Source: a virus | Direction: 5' to 3' (one strand) | Virus record (IMG/VR): IMGVR_UViG_3300049914_000132 | Location: 1 to 61,801 of that record | Length of the DNA stretch: 61,801 nt | Part shown: piece by piece, positions 1,030 to 50,815 of the stretch | How the letters are laid out: every line of letters begins with the position of its first letter | Numbering within the stretch: the first letter of the stretch is position 1 | Notes under the pieces: generated by a model | The model's input: the letters and a program-made list of their open reading frames with translations, nothing else | Database searches by the model: none | What the model was told of the DNA's origin: nothing | Position numbers and translations under genes: made by a program

Positions 1030-2511
1030 ATGGCAAACGACCCATTCAGCAGAGAGATCATAAATGTTCGAGAGCGGCCTCTGTCAAGTGACACCAACAT
1101 AGCGGAGAGCTACCTAGACCGATCTCTGCGTGACTTCATTCGTGCTCTGCTGGCACCGGACCCGCTTGCGGTCGTGACTGGCTTCCTCAATCAGAGCTTC
1201 AAGGTTGTTGCCACGACTACGCCCAGCATGACGGTGAACATCTCTCCGGGCCTTGGGTTCATCGACGATGCTTCCGATGTGCCTACAGCAATTGGTGGTG
1301 TGCTTGGCGTGAATGATGTGTCCACGATGAAGCCTCTGCCGCTCTCTGCTGTACAGCCCATCGTGATTGACGGAGCTCCGTCTGCGGGAAACAGCAGGTA
1401 CGACATCATCGAGGTCAAGTGCGACAGAAGGTCACAGGACCCAACCTCCAGAGACATCTTGGACCCTGCAACGGGCGTCTTCGCACCAAACCTCGTCAAC
1501 AAGACGCTCGCGTTCTACCTGGACGGCAGGAACGCGCGTGTCGTTTCTCCTGCTCCTTCTACGACGGGCATAGGCTACAAGGTCGGCGTTGCAGCAACGT
1601 CAGGAACGGAAGTCGTGCCTGCAACGACGGCTGGATACGTGAAGATTGCAGAGATCCACGTCGTCAGTGGCGTGACCACGATCACAAACAGCGTCATCAC
1701 AGATACTCGGCCCGGCTCGGGCTTGGCACTACTCTTAGGGAACAATGCGTTCCTGGGAAACAACACATTCGCAGGTACGAGCATCTTCAATGCGGCTGTG
1801 ACGATTGCAGCGTCGCTGCTTCTGAGCGCTGGAGACCTAACGCTGAGCGCTGGCAACATCGCGATGACCAGGGCAGCCCTTCAGTCAATCCTGAAGGGCG
1901 GCACCGGCGGATTCGACATCGGGACGTCGATCGCGTCGGACTTGCGCGTGCTCCTGAACAACGTGGCGCAATGGACGTTCAGAGCGAGCGATGGGGCACT
2001 GCTTTCCAATAGCAAGCAGATCACCGGGTTGCCGACTCCGGTCGCGGCGAGCGATGGGGCGAACAAGGGGTATGTTGATGGGCTGACGACCAGGGCTGCT
2101 CCTGCGCTCTCTGCGACATGTGGGGCTTTTGTTACTGCTTCTGCATCCTACGTTGACGTGACTAACCTATCCGTAACGATTGTCACGCACGGCAGACCCG
2201 TCGTTGTGACTTTGGTCCCTGATGGATCAGGCAATGGTGGGGATATCAACGTAGACGGCGTTAGCGTGGAAGACACGAGAGGTGTTTTTGCTATTCTGCA
2301 AGATACCGTGATCGTACATGAGTACTCTTTAGGTTACAAAGCTGCTGCTCCAGCGGACACCGTCCTGTATCTTTTCGTCCCTCCTAGTGCGGTTAGCTGC
2401 GTGGTTGTGCCTAGCGCCGGATCTCACGTGTACAAGGTACAAGCTAAGCACATCACTTCGGGTCGAAACACTGGTGTATCACTCTGTAAGTTGTTGGCTT
2501 ACGAGATCTAG
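1030..2511 (+). CDS. Putative tail fibre / baseplate-associated structural protein
   Basis: 493 residues preceded by an AAAGGAAG Shine-Dalgarno six bases from the ATG. The N-terminal third (MANDPFSREIINVRERPLSS) is polar and is followed by a long stretch of beta-rich, Thr/Ser/Ala/Val-rich sequence. Around residues 235-340 a repetitive segment (LLGNNAFLGNNTFAG, then LSAGDLTLSAGN) leads to ITGLPTPVAASDGANKGYVDG, a motif very common near the end of phage tail fibre shafts. The last 130 residues form a separate beta-rich domain that could be the distal tip. It follows the BNR-repeat gene and ends convergently with the minus-strand gene, the two stop codons sharing CTAG. Confidence 0.75.
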   Translation: MANDPFSREIINVRERPLSSDTNIAESYLDRSLRDFIRALLAPDPLAVVTGFLNQSFKVVATTTPSMTVNISPGLGFIDDASDVPTAIGGVLGVNDVSTMKPLPLSAVQPIVIDGAPSAGNSRYDIIEVKCDRRSQDPTSRDILDPATGVFAPNLVNKTLAFYLDGRNARVVSPAPSTTGIGYKVGVAATSGTEVVPATTAGYVKIAEIHVVSGVTTITNSVITDTRPGSGLALLLGNNAFLGNNTFAGTSIFNAAVTIAASLLLSAGDLTLSAGNIAMTRAALQSILKGGTGGFDIGTSIASDLRVLLNNVAQWTFRASDGALLSNSKQITGLPTPVAASDGANKGYVDGLTTRAAPALSATCGAFVTASASYVDVTNLSVTIVTHGRPVVVTLVPDGSGNGGDINVDGVSVEDTRGVFAILQDTVIVHEYSLGYKAAAPADTVLYLFVPPSAVSCVVVPSAGSHVYKVQAKHITSGRNTGVSLCKLLAYEI

Positions 2512-2942
2512 AACGGTACGGAGAACTGAGCGCCTATTCTCCAATTGTGATAGACCGTATGCGACTCGATTCCGATACTGACGTACTGCCAGCCATCCCG
2601 CCAGTTGCGCGGAAGGATGATGGATACACCTGCGTGGATCACGGATGTGCTCAGCATGTACAGTGCGAGGCGTCCTTGAGACGGGCGCTCTCCTAGGAAT
2701 GGGTTTTTCTCGGCACCACGATGTTTTAGCTGCCATGATGTTTGAGACCAATCAGCGACTATCAGTGCCATAAAGGCCAGCTCTCTGATTGTGTCCCCTG
2801 TTGACCACTTGCACGACTCGGCGTCATCACCGATGCAGCCCAGCCGGAAGGTGCAGGCAGGGTCTCCCGAGCCGATACAGTTCGGTGCGGCGTACGCTGG
2901 AAGGGCGTACAGTGCCAGCGCAGCTAGGACAGCGGTCTTCAC
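2508..2942 (-). CDS. Secreted or membrane phage protein with signal peptide
   Basis: 144 residues from a GTG start chosen because GAGGAGG lies six bases upstream and a signal peptide follows at once (MKTAVLAALALYALPAYA, cleavage after AYA). The mature part starts with a small cysteine-rich section (four Cys by residue 45) and then carries DWSQTSWQLKHR...EKNPFLGERPS, two hydrophobic segments and a beta-like tail WQYVSIGIESHTVYHN. The pattern D-x-x-Q-T plus NPxLG-x-x-P recurs in an uncharacterised family of short phage and proteobacterial envelope proteins. It is the only minus-strand gene at this end and is read toward the fibre genes. Function unknown. Confidence 0.7.
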   Translation of the reverse strand: MKTAVLAALALYALPAYAAPNCIGSGDPACTFRLGCIGDDAESCKWSTGDTIRELAFMALIVADWSQTSWQLKHRGAEKNPFLGERPSQGRLALYMLSTSVIHAGVSIILPRNWRDGWQYVSIGIESHTVYHNWRIGAQFSVPF

Positions 2943-3320
2943 GGAGCCCTCCTCGTGTTGCGCCTTGCTTCTGCCGCGACTGTGCGCCTTGCTGACTCCA
3001 TCGCTGCCGGGCACAGGTGCAACGAGCGGCACAGGTCTTGGAATAGGGCCAGGGTCATGATGTTTTGTCTCCGATCATCTCGTCAGCCTCGCGTAGCTGC
3101 TCAGCCTGCTTCGCCATCTTCGCTCTCCTTACCATATAGTAATAGCACAGTTTGTGCCACTTCTCATCTCAGCAAATCCGGAAGGTTGCGCGATCATCAG
3201 ACGAGTAAATCTGCACTCAGGGTGCGCACTGATGACTCACCCCGTATGGGTGTATGCTAGTTACCTACATCTAGCGCGAGGGGGTAGATGTGGCGGGCCT
3301 ACCCGGGTTAGGATGCCCCT
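2943..3320. promoter_or_regulatory. Divergent intergenic region with promoter-like box and GCAC dyad
   Basis: This 378-base gap separates the minus-strand envelope gene from the plus-strand lysis operon, so it should contain promoters for both. Two elements are visible. At 3145-3157 there is a perfect dyad GCACA-GTT-TGTGC; its last 11 bases recur at 33088-33098. At 3232-3260 a promoter-like stretch (ATGACT, then TATGCT 15 bases later, ending TGCTAG) resembles one at 12916-12943: both share GACTCACCC and the terminal TGCTAG. No convincing gene is present; the short frames read through here are chance. Confidence 0.45.
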
Positions 3321-3764
3321 GTGCAGCTCGCGCTAACAGGAGTCCACCCAGACGGCCCAGGCCGAGCCCCAGGCGTCCCACCGAACCCGCGCGTGGCCGT
3401 GCGCTGGCCTCTAGGGAGCACGGTAGCCATCCGCCTGTCCGTGGTCTCTCAGGCCAGTGGAGCGCCTGTAGACCTGTCCCTCGGGACCGCGCCGAACCTC
3501 ACGGTCGTCCGATTCAAGGCGCGCAAGCAGCCCCTACCCCTGTATCAACCACTCTTGTTGGACATCATAGGTACACTGCCAGTGCCTTACGTACTCGGCC
3601 AGTCCATCATCACGATCACGCCTACGATGCAGCGCATGGTTCTAGAGCAGAACATTTTCCGTGCGTTCTACGATATCTGGATCACCCTCCCAGACGGATC
3701 GCACAATGCCATCATTCCGACTTCACCACTTTACTTCGAGCCTGCTGTGACAGAGTTCTTCTGA
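3321..3764 (+). CDS. Hypothetical beta-rich phage structural protein
   Basis: 147 residues. The sequence from about residue 25 on (VAVRWPLGSTVAIRLSVVS, FYDIWITLPDGSHNAIIPTS) alternates hydrophobic and polar residues as in a beta-sandwich. The phrase IWITLPDGS followed by a proline-rich end resembles small phage tail or baseplate accessory proteins. The first 20 residues are proline- and glycine-rich and the start is uncertain, since no clear Shine-Dalgarno precedes the ATG. The gene heads the plus-strand run that leads into the lysis genes, with the endolysin starting 12 bases after its stop. Confidence 0.6.
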   Translation: MQLALTGVHPDGPGRAPGVPPNPRVAVRWPLGSTVAIRLSVVSQASGAPVDLSLGTAPNLTVVRFKARKQPLPLYQPLLLDIIGTLPVPYVLGQSIITITPTMQRMVLEQNIFRAFYDIWITLPDGSHNAIIPTSPLYFEPAVTEFF

Positions 3765-3775
3765 TTGGAGATCGC

Positions 3776-4231
3776 ATGGACCCAACACTTCAACAGCACT
3801 CAGACATCACATTCCTTGCACTGACCATCTGGAGAGAAGCACGTGGAGAAGGGCACACCTGCAAAGTTGGCGTCGCTTGCTCGATCTTAAACAGGGTCAA
3901 GAATCCAAAGTGGTGGGGAGACAGTGTCTCTGCCGTGCTCTTCAAGAAATGGCAGTACTCTTCACTCACTGATCCGAAAGACAGACAGCTCACGACCTGG
4001 CCATCCGTTGCTGACGTACGATGGGAAGAGTGCTTGCAGATAGCCACGGCTGCTCTTGCAGGAACGCTTGTGAACCCTGTCGCAGGTGCAGACTCGTACT
4101 ACGACGTGTCTATCAGTGCTCCAAGATGGGCAAAGCCTGAGATGTTCGTTGCACAGTTGGACAGGATCAGGTTCTTCAATACAGACAATGATCACGAGCT
4201 GGACGAAACGCACGTAGCCCCTACAACGTAA
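3776..4231 (+). CDS. Endolysin: SleB-type cell wall hydrolase
   Basis: 151 residues; the ATG at 3776 is preceded by TTGGAG. The sequence contains the Hydrolase_2 (SleB) signature: LALTIWREARGEG near residues 15-27, then VGVACSILNRVKNPKWWG and, further on, a DSYYDVSISAPRWA block. Glu in REARGEG matches the catalytic glutamate of this family, which cleaves peptidoglycan in spore germination enzymes and many phage endolysins. No signal peptide is present, so it would need the holin encoded next to reach the wall. The genes that follow (membrane protein, nested spanins) confirm a lysis cassette. Confidence 0.88.
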   Translation: MDPTLQQHSDITFLALTIWREARGEGHTCKVGVACSILNRVKNPKWWGDSVSAVLFKKWQYSSLTDPKDRQLTTWPSVADVRWEECLQIATAALAGTLVNPVAGADSYYDVSISAPRWAKPEMFVAQLDRIRFFNTDNDHELDETHVAPTT

Positions 4232-4243
4232 AGGAGCAGCACA

Positions 4244-4672
4244 ATGAAGAAGATCAACTACCTCATGTTCACACTCGTTTTCGCCATCGCCATCCTCTGC
4301 GGATACGAGATCGCACTTGCTCAGACTGCGCCTGCACAGCCTGATGCTGGAACTCTCATCGGAACTCTCATCTCGGCAATCCAGGGAAGGAACTGGATCG
4401 TCCTGGTTGGAGTCGTTCTTTCTCTGGTGATCTACGGTCTCCGAACGTGGGGAGGCTCTATCGTTCCGTGGTTCAAGACGAGCCGAGGGGGTGTTGCGCT
4501 CACGCTCATTGTGACCATTGTCGGAACTCTTGCGACCGTGCTCGCCGCAGGAAAGTTCAACTGGAGCTCGCTGATAGACGCTCTGGCTGTTGCAATGACG
4601 ACGGCCGGAGGCTACTCCATGTTCCGCAAGCTCTTCTTCCCGGATGATGTTGCTCCTGCTGTGAAGGTCTAG
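4244..4672 (+). CDS. Holin candidate
   Basis: 142 residues starting 12 bases after the endolysin stop, with AAGGAGCA as Shine-Dalgarno. The N-terminus MKKINYLMFTLVFAIAILCGYEIALAQ looks like a signal peptide or first membrane segment. It is followed by two clear hydrophobic segments (WIVLVGVVLSLVIYGL near residue 50 and GVALTLIVTIVGTLATVLAAG near 83-103) and a short charged tail. Two or three membrane spans, small size and a position directly between endolysin and spanins fit a holin. No family was recognised by sequence, so this rests on topology and context. Confidence 0.65.
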   Translation: MKKINYLMFTLVFAIAILCGYEIALAQTAPAQPDAGTLIGTLISAIQGRNWIVLVGVVLSLVIYGLRTWGGSIVPWFKTSRGGVALTLIVTIVGTLATVLAAGKFNWSSLIDALAVAMTTAGGYSMFRKLFFPDDVAPAVKV

Positions 4673-4675
4673 AAC

Positions 4676-5023
4676 ATGCCTTGGGCTTCTGTGATCATCG
4701 GCTTGGTTGGTGCTCTAGGCTGGGCGTTTGGCTTGTGGCAGCTTGCGCGTGCATCGTCCGCAAAGAAGGACGTAACCGCGCAAACCAAACGAGCCGATGA
4801 CGCAGAAGCTTCATTCGCGCAGGCTTTGGCAGACAAGGAAGATCAGAAGTCCAGATACGAGAAATTCATAGCCGAGCTGAAGAAAGAGGTTTCGGCTTTG
4901 GAGGTTCTGTTCAATGCGCACGCTGACGCTGATGCTTTGCGTGACCGTCTCCGCTTGCTGCTTGATTGGCAAGCCCAAGCCAACCCCACCACAGGAGGGC
5001 TGCCTCAAAAGCCCCCTACCTAA
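4676..5023 (+). CDS. i-spanin-like inner-membrane protein (Rz-like)
   Basis: 115 residues: one N-terminal membrane segment (WASVIIGLVGALGWAFGLW, residues 3-21) followed by a long charged helix (about residues 28-95) with heptad-like leucine and alanine spacing that should form a coiled coil in the periplasm. This is the architecture of i-spanins, which sit in the inner membrane and bind an outer-membrane lipoprotein to fuse the two membranes at lysis. A lipoprotein gene is nested out of frame in its 3' end, as in the classical lambda Rz/Rz1 arrangement. Confidence 0.78.
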   Translation: MPWASVIIGLVGALGWAFGLWQLARASSAKKDVTAQTKRADDAEASFAQALADKEDQKSRYEKFIAELKKEVSALEVLFNAHADADALRDRLRLLLDWQAQANPTTGGLPQKPPT

Positions 5024-5189
5024 CCTTCTGTCTGTTCAGTTCGCTGGTCCTACTGAAGGATGTCCCGATCCATTCATCGTGTGCTTTGACAAGGCAAATC
5101 TTGCGAAGCTGGAATCGAACATGGCTGAGATGCAGAAATACGCGACAGAAGCGTGGCTGCTGTGTGGGGCAGAGTCTTCAAAGAAGTAG
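4914..5189 (+). CDS. o-spanin-like lipoprotein (Rz1-like), overlapping the i-spanin out of frame
   Basis: 91 residues in a different frame, overlapping the i-spanin gene by 110 bases. GGAGG nine bases before the ATG sits inside the i-spanin coding sequence. The start MRTLTLMLCVTVSAC is a lipoprotein signal with lipobox VSAC, followed by a proline-rich stretch (GKPKPTPPQEG) and several cysteines, then a short helix (NLAKLESNMAEMQKYATEAW). Outer-membrane lipoproteins of this shape pair with i-spanins. The nested arrangement makes the assignment firm even though the sequence is not directly recognisable. Confidence 0.8.
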   Translation: MRTLTLMLCVTVSACCLIGKPKPTPPQEGCLKSPLPNLLSVQFAGPTEGCPDPFIVCFDKANLAKLESNMAEMQKYATEAWLLCGAESSKK

Positions 5190-5211
5190 CTCACCCATGG
5201 AGAAATAGCGC

Positions 5212-5712
5212 ATGAAGATACCTAGGATTCCAGCCCCTCGTGAGCGCCCTTGGGGCTACATCATCGTTGCAATCGTGATCCTTGGTTTCGTACTGGCCGT
5301 CATTTCTTGCGGCCCGATTTCATTCACTCAAGAGCCAGAAACAGTTGGTACAGTCCAGAGCGCTGCGCGCTGCACGTGCACTCAGATTATACCGCCCGCA
5401 GTTCCAACCCCTATCGTTCCGAATGACGCCTGGATCGCGCACTACGGTCTGTCGTACTGGAGAGACCCACTTGGGATCGTTCGCTTTCAGGGTTCCATCT
5501 CAAGCGCGAACGGTCTGGACGTACCTGTGACCATCATGCCTTTGGCCTATCGTCCCACAAACTACCGGTCCTTTGCTGCGTCTGAAGCCTACCCAGGATA
5601 CGTCGGGTCCGCTCGCGTCGAGGTTGACCCAGATGGAACCGTGAGCGTCACGCCGATTCGCATAGGAGCCGTGATCAGCCTGGATGGAATTTCGTATCTT
5701 GCAGCGCCTTGA
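5212..5712 (+). CDS. Membrane- or lipid-anchored protein with a fibre-tip-like C-terminal domain
   Basis: 166 residues. A hydrophobic segment at about residues 16-33 (YIIVAIVILGFVLAVISC) ends in VISC, which fits a lipobox, preceded by an unusually long basic N-terminus. The last 90 residues read GLSYWRDPLGIVRFQG... IMPLAYRPTNYRSFAASE... VEVDPDGTVSVT... ISLDGISY. That order (GIVRFQG, AYRP, a G-x-V beta strand, ISLDGI) is the small beta domain often found at the end of putative phage tail fibres. Here it is tied to a membrane anchor within the lysis region. Possible roles are receptor masking or superinfection exclusion; this is inference. Confidence 0.6.
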   Translation: MKIPRIPAPRERPWGYIIVAIVILGFVLAVISCGPISFTQEPETVGTVQSAARCTCTQIIPPAVPTPIVPNDAWIAHYGLSYWRDPLGIVRFQGSISSANGLDVPVTIMPLAYRPTNYRSFAASEAYPGYVGSARVEVDPDGTVSVTPIRIGAVISLDGISYLAAP

Positions 5713-47540: not shown

Positions 47541-47874
47541 GGCCAATCAGATGGTCAGAGGCATGGATCGCATAGAGCTTGAAGCCAACCTGTCCAAGAT
47601 ATCTGCTGCGTACGCTGAACTCAGGCTGATGGGGACACCGTGCTTGAACTGTGCAGTTGCAGCTATCTACAAGTGCATTGATCCTTCGTGCAAAGTTGGG
47701 AGGACTGCTGGCATGGTCATAGGTTCTATTAGTGTTTGTGCAGACAGATCTATGTTGAGAGCTGCCAGAGATGCTCTCAAGCGCCGCAAAGTTCGTTTTA
47801 TGGATGTGATCTATTACATGAACACGCAAAAGTTGATTGACCGAAGTGCCTATGTGGAACGTTATTCATTCTGA
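47530..47874 (+). CDS. Small CxxC-family protein near the terminase (114 aa)
   Basis: 114 residues from the ATG at 47530. ISAAYAELRLMGTPCLNCAV then YKCIDPSCKVG: the A-A-Y-x-E-L-x-L-x-G...C-x-x-C pattern also found in the genes at 50264-51553. It is the longest member and has a basic C-terminal extension (ARDALKRRKVRFMDVIYYMN). Overlaps the methyltransferase start. Confidence 0.6.
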   Translation: MARRANQMVRGMDRIELEANLSKISAAYAELRLMGTPCLNCAVAAIYKCIDPSCKVGRTAGMVIGSISVCADRSMLRAARDALKRRKVRFMDVIYYMNTQKLIDRSAYVERYSF

Positions 47875-50203
47875 GTGCATGCTTGCAATGCACAAGATGG
47901 AGCCCAACAGCGCTGACGCTGTGGTGACTGATCCACCGTACGAGCTTGGGTTCATGGGTAAGGGTTGGGACAAGTCAGGGATCGCAAACTCCGTCAGAAT
48001 GTGGCGTGAGGTCTTTCGTGTGCTCAAGCCAGGTGGTTACTTGCTCAGCTTCGGTGGAACTCGAACCTATCACCGGATGGCTTGCGCGATCGAAGACGCA
48101 GGGTTTGAGATCCGTGATAGCTTGGACTGGCTGTATGGCTGCTTGAGTGAGGACACTGAGATCCTGGTTAATGGAGAGTGGGAACATTACCGTAAAGCCG
48201 TTGCAGGGAGTCTCGCATTATGCTATGATGTACAGTATGACACGCTCTCTTGGCAAGAGATCCAAGAAGTCTTTGCCTATCCGTACAATGATACCGCCTT
48301 CCGAATTCAGTCGAATAGTACGGATCAGATCGTCTCCAGAAACCATCGCTGCCTTATTGAACGAGACGGAGCGCTCATTTTTTCTATCGCAGAAGAAGTT
48401 GCACGGGAATGCTCGGCGCGTGTACCCGTTTTGGAAGATCTGTCTGGTCTGTTTGAGGCCCTTCCAGTGCCACACCAAGGAACAAGTTTCCAGGAACAAG
48501 ACATGCACTATGGGTTGTGCGACAAGCTTACTGGGCAAGTATCCGAGACCACAGAAGCGCTCAAACGCAAAGTGCTCGGTGTGCAACAAACAGATCTATC
48601 GGTTTCCGAGTCACCTTCTTCGGGTTCAGACTCCAACCTGCTCTCGTCAATGCAATGGGAAACTTCGAGGGTTAGCGTGGAAAGCTCATGCACACAAGGG
48701 GAGGAAGGCATGGACAAAAGAATCCGAGATTGCATTTCGAGGGAAGATGTCAGGGTCACTCAATCCAGCGTGGAAGGGCGGGGTGACATTCTTCAAGAAG
48801 CATGGCAACTACAAGGGTGTCCGATACGTTCGGTGTCCGGCCATGCTTATTCAGATGGCACGGAAGGACGGGTACGTCATGGAGCATCGTTTGATTGTGG
48901 CAAAGCTGATCGGGCGCTGCCTTTTACAGATGGAGATAGTCCATCACGAAGACCGAGACCCACAAAACAACAAGCCATTGAATCTGATGTTGTTCAGATC
49001 AAACAAGGAGCACAAACTGTACGAGCATCACGGTTCGCCTCTTCCGATCTGGCGAGGGTCACACCTTTCCACCTCATTGGAACAGTGTGGTGCGTGAAGG
49101 TTCCGACTGGCGCGTTTGTCGCACGTCGAAACGGTAAGATCTTCATTACTGGTAACTCTGGCTTCCCGAAGTCGCTGGACATCAGCTTGGCGATAGACAC
49201 AAAGCTTGGAAAGAGCCGGAAGGCGATTGGTCCTGCGACCAGGCATGGGGGTGGGGACAGCAAGGTCATGGTGGGCGACTACAACGCCCCAAGGACCGCG
49301 CCTGCCAGCCCCCAGGCAGCTCTTTGGGATGGGTGGGGCACAGCCCTGAAGCCAGCGCACGAGCCGATTGTGCTCGCCCGCAAGCCCTTCTCGGGGACCA
49401 TTGTGGCGCACGTGCTCAAGCACGGTACAGGGGGTATCAACGTCGGGGCGTGCAGGCTGGGAACGACTGAGAACCTTGGGAGGAACAACAAGAGTCAGGC
49501 GACATGGGGAAATTATGGGAATGGACCAAGCAGCCAATTAGGACTTCCGATTTCTGATCAGAGTCGTTTCCCTCCAAACGTTCTGCTCAGCCATTCACCT
49601 GCATGCGGGAAGAAGTGCGCTCCAGGCTGTCCTGTTGCAGCATTGGACAAGCAGAGCGGGATCTTGAAGGGTGGAACGATCAAAGCATCAACTGTTACAA
49701 AAGGTGGCTCAAGAATCGGGACGTTCAATATTCGAGAACGGACGGGACGTCAGTATGTTGGGTCTGTAGGTGGAGCGTCCAAGTTCTTTCCGATCTTGAA
49801 CTGGGATCCGATGGACTTCGACTTCTTCCGCTACCAAGCAAAGCCATCGAACACCGAACGGGATGCAGGATGTGCAGGAGAGGGCACAGCAGCAGAAGTT
49901 ACCGGCCGAGAGCCGGATAGCAGAGGGCTGAACAACTCAAGGTCAGGGATGCGCCGGAAAGGATCAGTTGGCAACGAACACCCTACGGTCAAACCTATCA
50001 CCCTCATGGGCTGGCTCTGCAAGCTCATCACACCGAAAGGTGGGCTCATACTCGATCCGTTCTGTGGTTCTGGGACAACAGGTTGTGCGGCAATCTGGCT
50101 CGGGTTCAACTTCATAGGGATTGATCAGTCAGCAGAGTACGCTGAGCTAGCCCGTGGGAGGATAGCAGCATACGAGAAACACTTGGCCAGCAAGCACAAA
50201 TAG
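47852..50203 (+). CDS. DNA adenine/cytosine-N4 methyltransferase interrupted by an intein
   Basis: 783-residue precursor from the ATG at 47852 (a TTG at 47837 is upstream). Extein motifs: TDPPYELGF (catalytic DPPY) near the start, VFRVLKPGGYLLSFGG, then after the intein NEHPTVKPITLMGWLCKLIT and LILDPFCGSGTTGCAA (SAM-binding FxGxG). This DPPY-first order is that of a beta-class amino-methyltransferase. The host protein joint is DWLYG/SGFPKS, a conserved methylase segment often used by inteins. Without the intein the enzyme has 444 residues. Probably protects phage DNA or marks it. Cys-containing VLLSHSPACGKKCAPGCPV is a typical family insertion. Confidence 0.85.
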   Translation: MWNVIHSECMLAMHKMEPNSADAVVTDPPYELGFMGKGWDKSGIANSVRMWREVFRVLKPGGYLLSFGGTRTYHRMACAIEDAGFEIRDSLDWLYGCLSEDTEILVNGEWEHYRKAVAGSLALCYDVQYDTLSWQEIQEVFAYPYNDTAFRIQSNSTDQIVSRNHRCLIERDGALIFSIAEEVARECSARVPVLEDLSGLFEALPVPHQGTSFQEQDMHYGLCDKLTGQVSETTEALKRKVLGVQQTDLSVSESPSSGSDSNLLSSMQWETSRVSVESSCTQGEEGMDKRIRDCISREDVRVTQSSVEGRGDILQEAWQLQGCPIRSVSGHAYSDGTEGRVRHGASFDCGKADRALPFTDGDSPSRRPRPTKQQAIESDVVQIKQGAQTVRASRFASSDLARVTPFHLIGTVWCVKVPTGAFVARRNGKIFITGNSGFPKSLDISLAIDTKLGKSRKAIGPATRHGGGDSKVMVGDYNAPRTAPASPQAALWDGWGTALKPAHEPIVLARKPFSGTIVAHVLKHGTGGINVGACRLGTTENLGRNNKSQATWGNYGNGPSSQLGLPISDQSRFPPNVLLSHSPACGKKCAPGCPVAALDKQSGILKGGTIKASTVTKGGSRIGTFNIRERTGRQYVGSVGGASKFFPILNWDPMDFDFFRYQAKPSNTERDAGCAGEGTAAEVTGREPDSRGLNNSRSGMRRKGSVGNEHPTVKPITLMGWLCKLITPKGGLILDPFCGSGTTGCAAIWLGFNFIGIDQSAEYAELARGRIAAYEKHLASKHK
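48140..49156 (+). other. Intein (339 aa) in the methyltransferase
   Basis: Starts with Cys at CLSEDTEILVNGEWEHY (block A), block B is SNSTDQIVSRNHRCLI, and the end is VWCVKVPTGAFVARRNGKIF then ITGN before Ser+1 (blocks F and G). The penultimate residue is Gly instead of the common His. Splicing would join DWLYG to SGFPKS. Between the blocks the reading frame stays open for about 600 bases but encodes no recognisable domain; the HNH endonuclease lies there in another frame. Confidence 0.85.
48420..49097 (+). CDS. HNH homing endonuclease in a different frame inside the intein
   Basis: Frame shifted +1 relative to the intein. Possible GTG start at 48420 (no clear Shine-Dalgarno; ATG at 48511 also possible). 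The product has two Cys-pair ribbons (CLVCLRPFQCH...KTCTMGC and KCSVCNKQIYRF...PTCSRQC), a WTKESEIAFRGKMSGSLNPA DNA-binding-like segment, and a typical HNH_3 core GYVMEHRLIVAKLIGRCLLQ then VHHEDRDPQNNKPLNLMLF and NKEHKLYEHHG. It would be a DNA-cutting enzyme promoting intein spread, but it cannot be made by simple read-through of the methyltransferase frame. Confidence 0.75.
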   Translation: MYPFWKICLVCLRPFQCHTKEQVSRNKTCTMGCATSLLGKYPRPQKRSNAKCSVCNKQIYRFPSHLLRVQTPTCSRQCNGKLRGLAWKAHAHKGRKAWTKESEIAFRGKMSGSLNPAWKGGVTFFKKHGNYKGVRYVRCPAMLIQMARKDGYVMEHRLIVAKLIGRCLLQMEIVHHEDRDPQNNKPLNLMLFRSNKEHKLYEHHGSPLPIWRGSHLSTSLEQCGA

Positions 50204-50515: not shown

Positions 50516-50751
50516 GCTTGATCCGGAAATCTGATCGGATAGCTGCTGCATACACAGAGCTGAGCCTGCTTGGCTTTGGCTGCTTCAAGTGTTCCGCCCC
50601 ACGCTCGAAAGTGTGCTCCATAAACGGGGAGTTAGCACTGCACTGTGTGTTTCAGAACAGCAACTTCGACGCGGACGCAGCCAGGGGTACTCTTGTGTAC
50701 TACGATGTTTATCTGTCAGAAGTTTCAGATTACAGAAACAAGGCAGGATAG
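50512..50751 (+). CDS. Small cysteine-rich protein, cluster member 2
   Basis: 79 residues, ATGA overlap. DRIAAAYTELSLLGFGCFKC then KVCSINGELALHCVFQ. Same spacing of C-x-x-C...C...C as member 1, so the two are paralogs. Its stop codon lies eight bases inside the following tRNA gene. Confidence 0.6.
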   Translation: MSLIRKSDRIAAAYTELSLLGFGCFKCSAPRSKVCSINGELALHCVFQNSNFDADAARGTLVYYDVYLSEVSDYRNKAG

Positions 50752-50813
50752 CTTAATGGGAAAGCCTGGGTCATATACACCAGAGACTGTCGGTTCGATT
50801 CCGGCTCCTGCCT
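50742..50813 (+). tRNA. tRNA or tRNA-like gene with irregular anticodon arm
   Basis: Standard 72-base layout: acceptor GGCAGGA pairs perfectly with TCCTGCC, D-arm GCTT/AAGC with loop AATGGGA, T-arm GTCGG/CCGGC with loop TTCGATT, five-base variable loop, discriminator T, no encoded CCA. The anticodon arm is odd: TGGGT-CATATAC-ACCAG has one mismatch and A instead of U at position 33 (anticodon would be UAU), while CTGG/CCAG gives a ten-base loop. Anticodon therefore uncertain; could be a decoy or degenerate tRNA. Confidence 0.7.
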
Positions 50814-50815
50814 CT

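Follow-up and report, generated by a model that had tools for sequence, protein, structure and literature searches.

The window, by which we mean the whole stretch of DNA analysed, is a 61.8-kb virus record in which a DNA methyltransferase gene sits downstream of a large terminase gene. The whole methylase open reading frame matches PF01555 (E 3.6e-28) and phrog_67 (E 5e-61), and its frame is stop-free from 47837 to 50203, straight across an intein (48140-49156) that begins at a cysteine codon (TGC 48140), ends at an asparagine codon (AAC 49154-49156) and is followed by a serine codon (TCT), the insertion site lying between WLYG and SGFPKS. An HNH reading frame, displaced by +1 relative to the methylase, is open from 48147 to 49097; the third frame of the insert contains 19 stops. 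A tRNA-Ile gene (anticodon TAT, 50742-50814), the sole tRNA found in the window, lies just 3' of the methylase. The features of the locus are as follows.

47852..48139, plus strand: N-extein of an N6/N4 DNA methyltransferase (PF01555, phrog_67), with a probable start at ATG 47852.
48140..49156, plus strand: intein of 339 codons, C1 to N339, in the methylase frame without a stop; Hint fold in the AlphaFold model.
48140..48166, plus strand: splicing block, which we take to be block A, CLSEDTEIL; recognised in alignments, Cys1 invariant.
48144..48146, plus strand: TGA at intein nt 5-7, the upstream limit of the HNH frame, read from the sequence.
48288..49097, plus strand: HNH homing-endonuclease gene in the +1 frame, with likely start ATG 48288 and stop TGA 49095-49097.
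48320..48361, plus strand: splicing block B, TDQIVSRNHRCLIE, with an invariant His69; the HNH N-terminus overlaps it.
48441..48653, plus strand: two Cys clusters resembling zinc fingers in the HNH protein, invariant in alignments.
48470..49009, plus strand: intein-frame linker, residues about 111-290; pLDDT mostly <50, substitutions following HNH codons.
48942..49013, plus strand: HNH core H219, N232, H242, invariant; the match to I-HmuI spans the region.
49079..49156, plus strand: C-terminal splicing blocks, presumably F and G, GTVWCVKVPTGAFVARRNGKIFITGN; recognised by alignments and substitution pattern.
49157..50203, plus strand: C-extein, with Ser as the +1 residue.

The methylase-frame reading of the insert would give a Hint splicing domain interrupted by a long, seemingly unstructured linker. 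Cys1 (the block A nucleophile), His69 (block B) and Asn339 are invariant in the 53 aligned intein members, and Ser occupies the +1 position in all 68 HNH-bearing inteins of the survey described below. AlphaFold models the splicing parts with pLDDT 92-98 and most of residues 138-286 below 50, and the best PDB matches to the intein model are inteins and hedgehog proteins. Block B of the family reads SxxH where TxxH is usual, Gly338 is invariant in the aligned family, and the window intein ends in Thr-Gly-Asn (49148-49156), the usual His-Asn being absent throughout the alignment. A penultimate histidine is common, though not universal, among inteins, so that its absence is not decisive. Neither Pfam nor NCBIfam recognises the window intein, and Pfam Intein_splicing matches 6 of the 53 members; phmmer searches with either the window HNH or its intein gave no convincing relative of solved structure. 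The precursor would be expected to splice out the insert and restore the methylase.

In its +1 reading the insert would specify a separate zinc-finger/HNH homing endonuclease. The window HNH matches phrog_15471 (E 1.9e-14) and HNH_3 (E 3.3e-5, slightly below the Pfam cut-off), and HNH_3 was detected in 47 of 48 HNH members. Counted from ATG 48288, the invariant cysteine clusters are C52/C55/C73/C77 and C96/C99/C118/C122; H219, N232 and H242 are probably the catalytic residues. The AlphaFold model of the protein has a mean pLDDT of 87, with N-terminal helices at about 95. Foldseek with this model returned no match at E 0.001; the best re-aligned chain for the HNH core is I-HmuI, at modest scores (Z 5.5, rmsd 4.5, 78 aligned residues, 19% identity). 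I-HmuI, a group I intron-borne HNH homing endonuclease, resembles the window core by structure, whereas the window gene is borne by an intein. An earlier, sequence-only reading of this DNA proposed initiation at 48420-48511 or +1 slippage near 48426; both positions are probably wrong, the conserved and confidently modelled HNH N-terminus starting at about 48288. The same reading correctly described the methylase frame as stop-free but underestimated the overlap, which runs for about 800 nt from ATG 48288 to the HNH stop rather than about 600.

With the window HNH as query, two viral contigs were found, L006 (49% identity) and L007 (44%), both having an open intein frame and an HNH in +1; a third such case is the huge-phage record LR756508. 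Alignment-based scans covered 60 loci found by HNH, the best 80 of 153 found by intein, and 7 genome contigs, with profiles for both splicing ends and for the HNH applied to three forward frames and HNH matches sought on the plus strand of each locus; the window itself (L008) was dropped. The scans yielded 90 distinct inteins with both splicing ends, always within one open reading frame. An HNH is present in 68 of the 90 and lies in the +1 frame in every one of the 68, never in frame or in +2, with no intein-frame stop; one of the 68 (L141, a partial HNH in +1) was left out of the 67 analysed further, all of which occupy the same insertion site and carry 9-44 stops in the third frame. Comparison with homologous inteins, which the sequence-only reading proposed as a way of locating frame changes, finds the +1 arrangement in all 68 HNH-bearing inteins, and its central claim of an out-of-frame HNH inside an open-framed intein is confirmed. 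The element is a real and widespread two-frame intein.

Another 22 loci were without one or both splicing ends. They include L051 and L133, which are contig ends showing an identical +1 layout, and L036, a free HNH described below. The HNH of L044 holds an internal stop. Splicing ends are kept in L061, of 597 nt with a truncated HNH, and in L132, of 462 nt and without a detected HNH; both look like shortened forms of the intein. The 22 HNH-less inteins include a 432-nt one in L130 (3501-3932), perhaps a decaying mini-intein, with one intein-frame stop, in block A; LAGLIDADG Pfam matches occur in 3 of the 10 HNH-less inteins scanned. A DNA similarity search of phages gave weakly similar methylases alone, mostly of mycobacteriophage, while the viral scan with the window methylase protein and the genome scan with the window HNH alone gave no matches.

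The open methylase frame is not a chance by-product of the HNH sequence. When the codons of the window HNH were permuted synonymously 20000 times, the methylase frame was never free of stops (mean 11.5, minimum 2); the reverse permutation, in which methylase-frame residues were held constant, never gave an open HNH frame in 20000 trials; and a third-position model gives log10 P(open) = -8.5 for the window. The earlier estimate of roughly 6 in 100000 assumed unbiased sequence; its conclusion stands, the case against chance being far stronger when residues are fixed. An intein-frame stop requires an HNH codon ending in T followed by a codon beginning AA, AG or GA, and across the 67 inteins T occurs at 0 of 3303 such junctions, as against 2758 of 8765 elsewhere; log10 P(open) has a median of -9.6 (range -1.6 to -20.7). 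In 10 control HNH loci outside methylase ORFs, T stands at 91 of 239 stop-making junctions. These 10 are quoted as the control because seven of the 17 control rows, six of them distinct, turned out to lie inside methylase ORFs, where T occurs at 0 of 231; L059 and L067, which repeat L058, were excluded. In a full-length close HNH relative outside any methylase or intein (L036, 3462-4295), 31 stops interrupt the equivalent frame. This free HNH has many stops in both other frames. Selection for a readable host frame, suggested by the sequence-only reading, is strongly supported by the 67 relatives, through the missing T, the open frame in all 68 HNH-bearing inteins and the frame-specific substitutions.

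Position-specific substitutions were counted per codon in 17 disjoint pairs, at intein positions 1/2/3. The values are.19/.15/.35 in the N part and.08/.04/.44 in the C part; in the HNH core they are.40/.23/.21, with the peak at intein position 1, equivalent to position 3 of the HNH codon; where the HNH overlaps block B they are low at all three positions (.13/.06/.19). Therefore the HNH is the selected protein over most of the overlap, the intein reading being mainly a stop-free linker, a by-product of HNH coding; around block B, constraint acts on both frames. The low-confidence AlphaFold linker agrees with HNH-driven selection in the overlap.

The element is very probably a mobile methylase intein whose homing endonuclease is a nested, overlapping +1 gene and not an in-frame fusion. 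The intein would excise itself and so restore the methylase, and the HNH, probably initiated internally near the block B coding region, would cut or nick the intein-free methylase gene, after which repair would copy the element. Selection on the methylase purges intein-frame stops, and selection for homing preserves the HNH residues; over most of the overlap intein-frame residues are largely free save for the no-stop rule, with a double constraint where the HNH overlaps block B.

How the HNH is made can be judged from the family. Of the 67 members, 34 have an ATG at aligned intein nt 140, among them L015 and L045 with a strong Shine-Dalgarno, and 7 have a GTG at 143; the mean anti-SD energy of the 34 ATGs is -4.5, whereas shuffled sequence gives about -1.2, and 16 of the 34 are below -5. 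Strong SD-like stretches without a following start also occur, at nt 44-53 and 236-245, which makes the SD evidence alone modest. The codon of Tyr47, which makes ATG 140, is TAT in 45 of 63 cases, compared with 62 of 190 other tyrosines; Tyr29, outside the 190, is also TAT-rich (46 of 65). The HNH frame has a stop at window-aligned nt 121-133 in 11 members, all 11 of which have ATG 140, as against 23 of 54 others (Fisher p 0.0004; two members with later stops omitted). The sequence-only reading allowed either internal initiation or frameshifting, and initiation is favoured because these 11 closed members all carry ATG 140.

The alternative, a programmed +1 shift out of the methylase/intein frame, would yield a fusion of extein, N-terminal intein and HNH. 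In its favour, the +1 offset is identical in all members, and in the window a shift anywhere in 48147-48288 would give a continuous product; but the stops of the 11 members (among 67) confine any shift to a few codons ahead of the conserved HNH N-terminus, and an SD-like stretch precedes ATG 140 in many members. We consider frameshifting unlikely. Internal initiation is well supported for the family. The window is without an ATG at nt 140, and its sole ATG in the zone, at 48288 (nt 149), has no Shine-Dalgarno sequence (+1.7); initiation at this ATG is probable by analogy with the family, and since the window HNH frame is open back to 48147, another start, or frameshifting, is conceivable there.

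It is distinctly improbable that the insert stays in the protein as a tolerated extension of the methylase, of the kind proposed for the ShiLan domain considered below, with the Hint parts as relics. Related out-of-frame HNH genes do occur in the same methylases without a splicing domain (L052/L153, L054-L058), and the penultimate histidine is missing; against this, Cys1, His69 and Asn339 do not vary among the 53 aligned members, Ser+1 is retained by all 68, and a strong codon-position bias marks both ends, as expected under active selection on a splicing domain. A single out-of-frame domain is usually read as decay, here of an intein whose once in-frame HNH was displaced by an indel, real or in sequencing; this reading is rejected as extremely improbable, as the +1 layout is shared by 68 of 68 HNH-bearing inteins with none in frame, the HNH core codons are under purifying selection and no stop-making T was found in 3303 junctions. 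The sequencing error that the sequence-only reading offered as its own refutation is excluded because the arrangement is conserved across relatives. HNH genes are common in phage introns, but a group I or II intron with only apparent intein similarity is scarcely credible and is rejected, because an intron needs no open host frame, the intein ends carry conserved splicing residues, the Hint model is confident, and Rfam covariance models gave no gathering-score match in 10 loci (the window having one weak, irrelevant match).

Intein similarity greatly exceeds that of the flanks in several pairs of relatives: L119/L156 have inteins 86% alike and flanks 59% and 60% alike, and L007/L039 have 78% against 59% and 61%, whereas L122/L150 show no discordance between intein and extein (75%, flanks 77% and 71%). 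In 65 of the 67 inteins, splicing-domain distances are uncorrelated with extein distances (-0.06) and correlate only moderately with HNH distances (rho 0.34, null maximum 0.18); the value for extein and HNH distances is 0.27 (null maximum 0.30). The discordant pairs favour the mobile-intein reading, while the moderate correlation, the extein-HNH value and the pairs without discordance count against it.

The loci with naked HNH genes (L052/L153, which are identical in sequence, and L054-L058) combine the same HNH family, the +1 frame and the same methylase kind with a position 3' of the intein site and no splicing blocks. In these methylases (at 2954-4876 in L052) the HNH lies between Cys-rich CxC and CxxC stretches, with the host frame open. 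Naked copies branch inside the intein HNH clade in three places; the whole clade has low support, and the grouping of naked copies with particular intein copies has support of 0.95-0.975. Further along the methylase ORF, 3' of the intein, second out-of-frame HNH genes in +1 or +2 are found in L016 (4923-5666), L035 (4947-5525), L045 (4588-5208), L050 (4330-4782) and L115 (4678-5214), and the methylase frame is open over them, as in ShiLan (L010). In L007 a methylase region (1707-4217, 1892-2578, 4195-4788, 5059-5529) holds several additional HNH ORFs; at 1892-2578 and 5059-5529 one other frame is open and the second has 30 and 24 stops, respectively, in AT-rich DNA. There may exist a class of frame-transparent phage HNH genes, stop-free in the host frame, which reside mainly in the two-frame intein and have moved to naked sites several times; we give this proposal an even chance. 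The splicing domain would then serve to remove the meaningless translation of a frame-transparent HNH gene, and the overlap of its start with block B would bind the two genes to each other.

In HNH inteins such as cyanobacterial GyrB, the HNH is an in-frame domain; those inteins resemble the window intein in containing an HNH and differ in its frame, +1 here. Inteins are described as full-length, with the endonuclease domain embedded in them, as mini-inteins lacking that domain, or as split (available text of PMC7765530); the present family departs from the full-length kind in that the in-frame endonuclease is replaced in all 68 cases by one in +1. The intein of related methylases typified by Dorothy_75 is associated with a LAGLIDADG endonuclease, according to the available text of PMC9957025. 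It occupies the insertion position of the window intein, since in Lilac and KilKor the methylase match adjoins the intein match as it does in the window, and its C-terminal splicing ends resemble that of the window (77-79% identity over 26-29 residues); unlike the window intein, it goes with LAGLIDADG, and no HNH match was found in L001-L004.

The nearest published case found is the non-splicing ShiLan domain (mycobacteriophage ShiLan gp65), described by Arsenault, Gosselin and Gogarten (2025) in the available text of PMC11855218 as an out-of-frame HNH in a phage methylase that is not an intein. It shares with the window element an out-of-frame HNH, an open methylase frame, the broad methylase group, a zinc finger with an HNH, and a patchy spread, and its HNH is weakly similar to that of the window (27.9% identity over 66% of the query, E 4e-9). 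It differs in being without a splicing domain, in having its HNH in the third frame (methylase +2) rather than in +1, and in its site; the window element, with its Hint domain and +1 HNH, accordingly falls outside the ShiLan type. In the same text, Gorbalenya 1998 (Non-canonical inteins) is cited in a sentence on overlapping frames. No description of an out-of-frame endonuclease within a splicing intein was found in the literature searched, the coverage of which is incomplete, so that novelty is provisional.

Here a single selfish element has its two functions in separate, overlapping genes read in different frames, and the family provides a large natural data set on a long overlapping gene pair in which constraint can be measured per frame. 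It opens the question of how an endonuclease is expressed independently of its host protein, and its relation to inserts that do not splice puts the origin of the ShiLan type within reach of a test. A further suggestion is that homing endonucleases lying in alternative frames can escape annotation: the ShiLan record, the one named record examined, has the methylase as its sole annotation over the hidden HNH. Elsewhere in the window, a 493-codon ORF without a PHROGs match (1030-2511) encloses a 197-codon ORF in another frame (1419-2012), a nested pair possibly due to chance.
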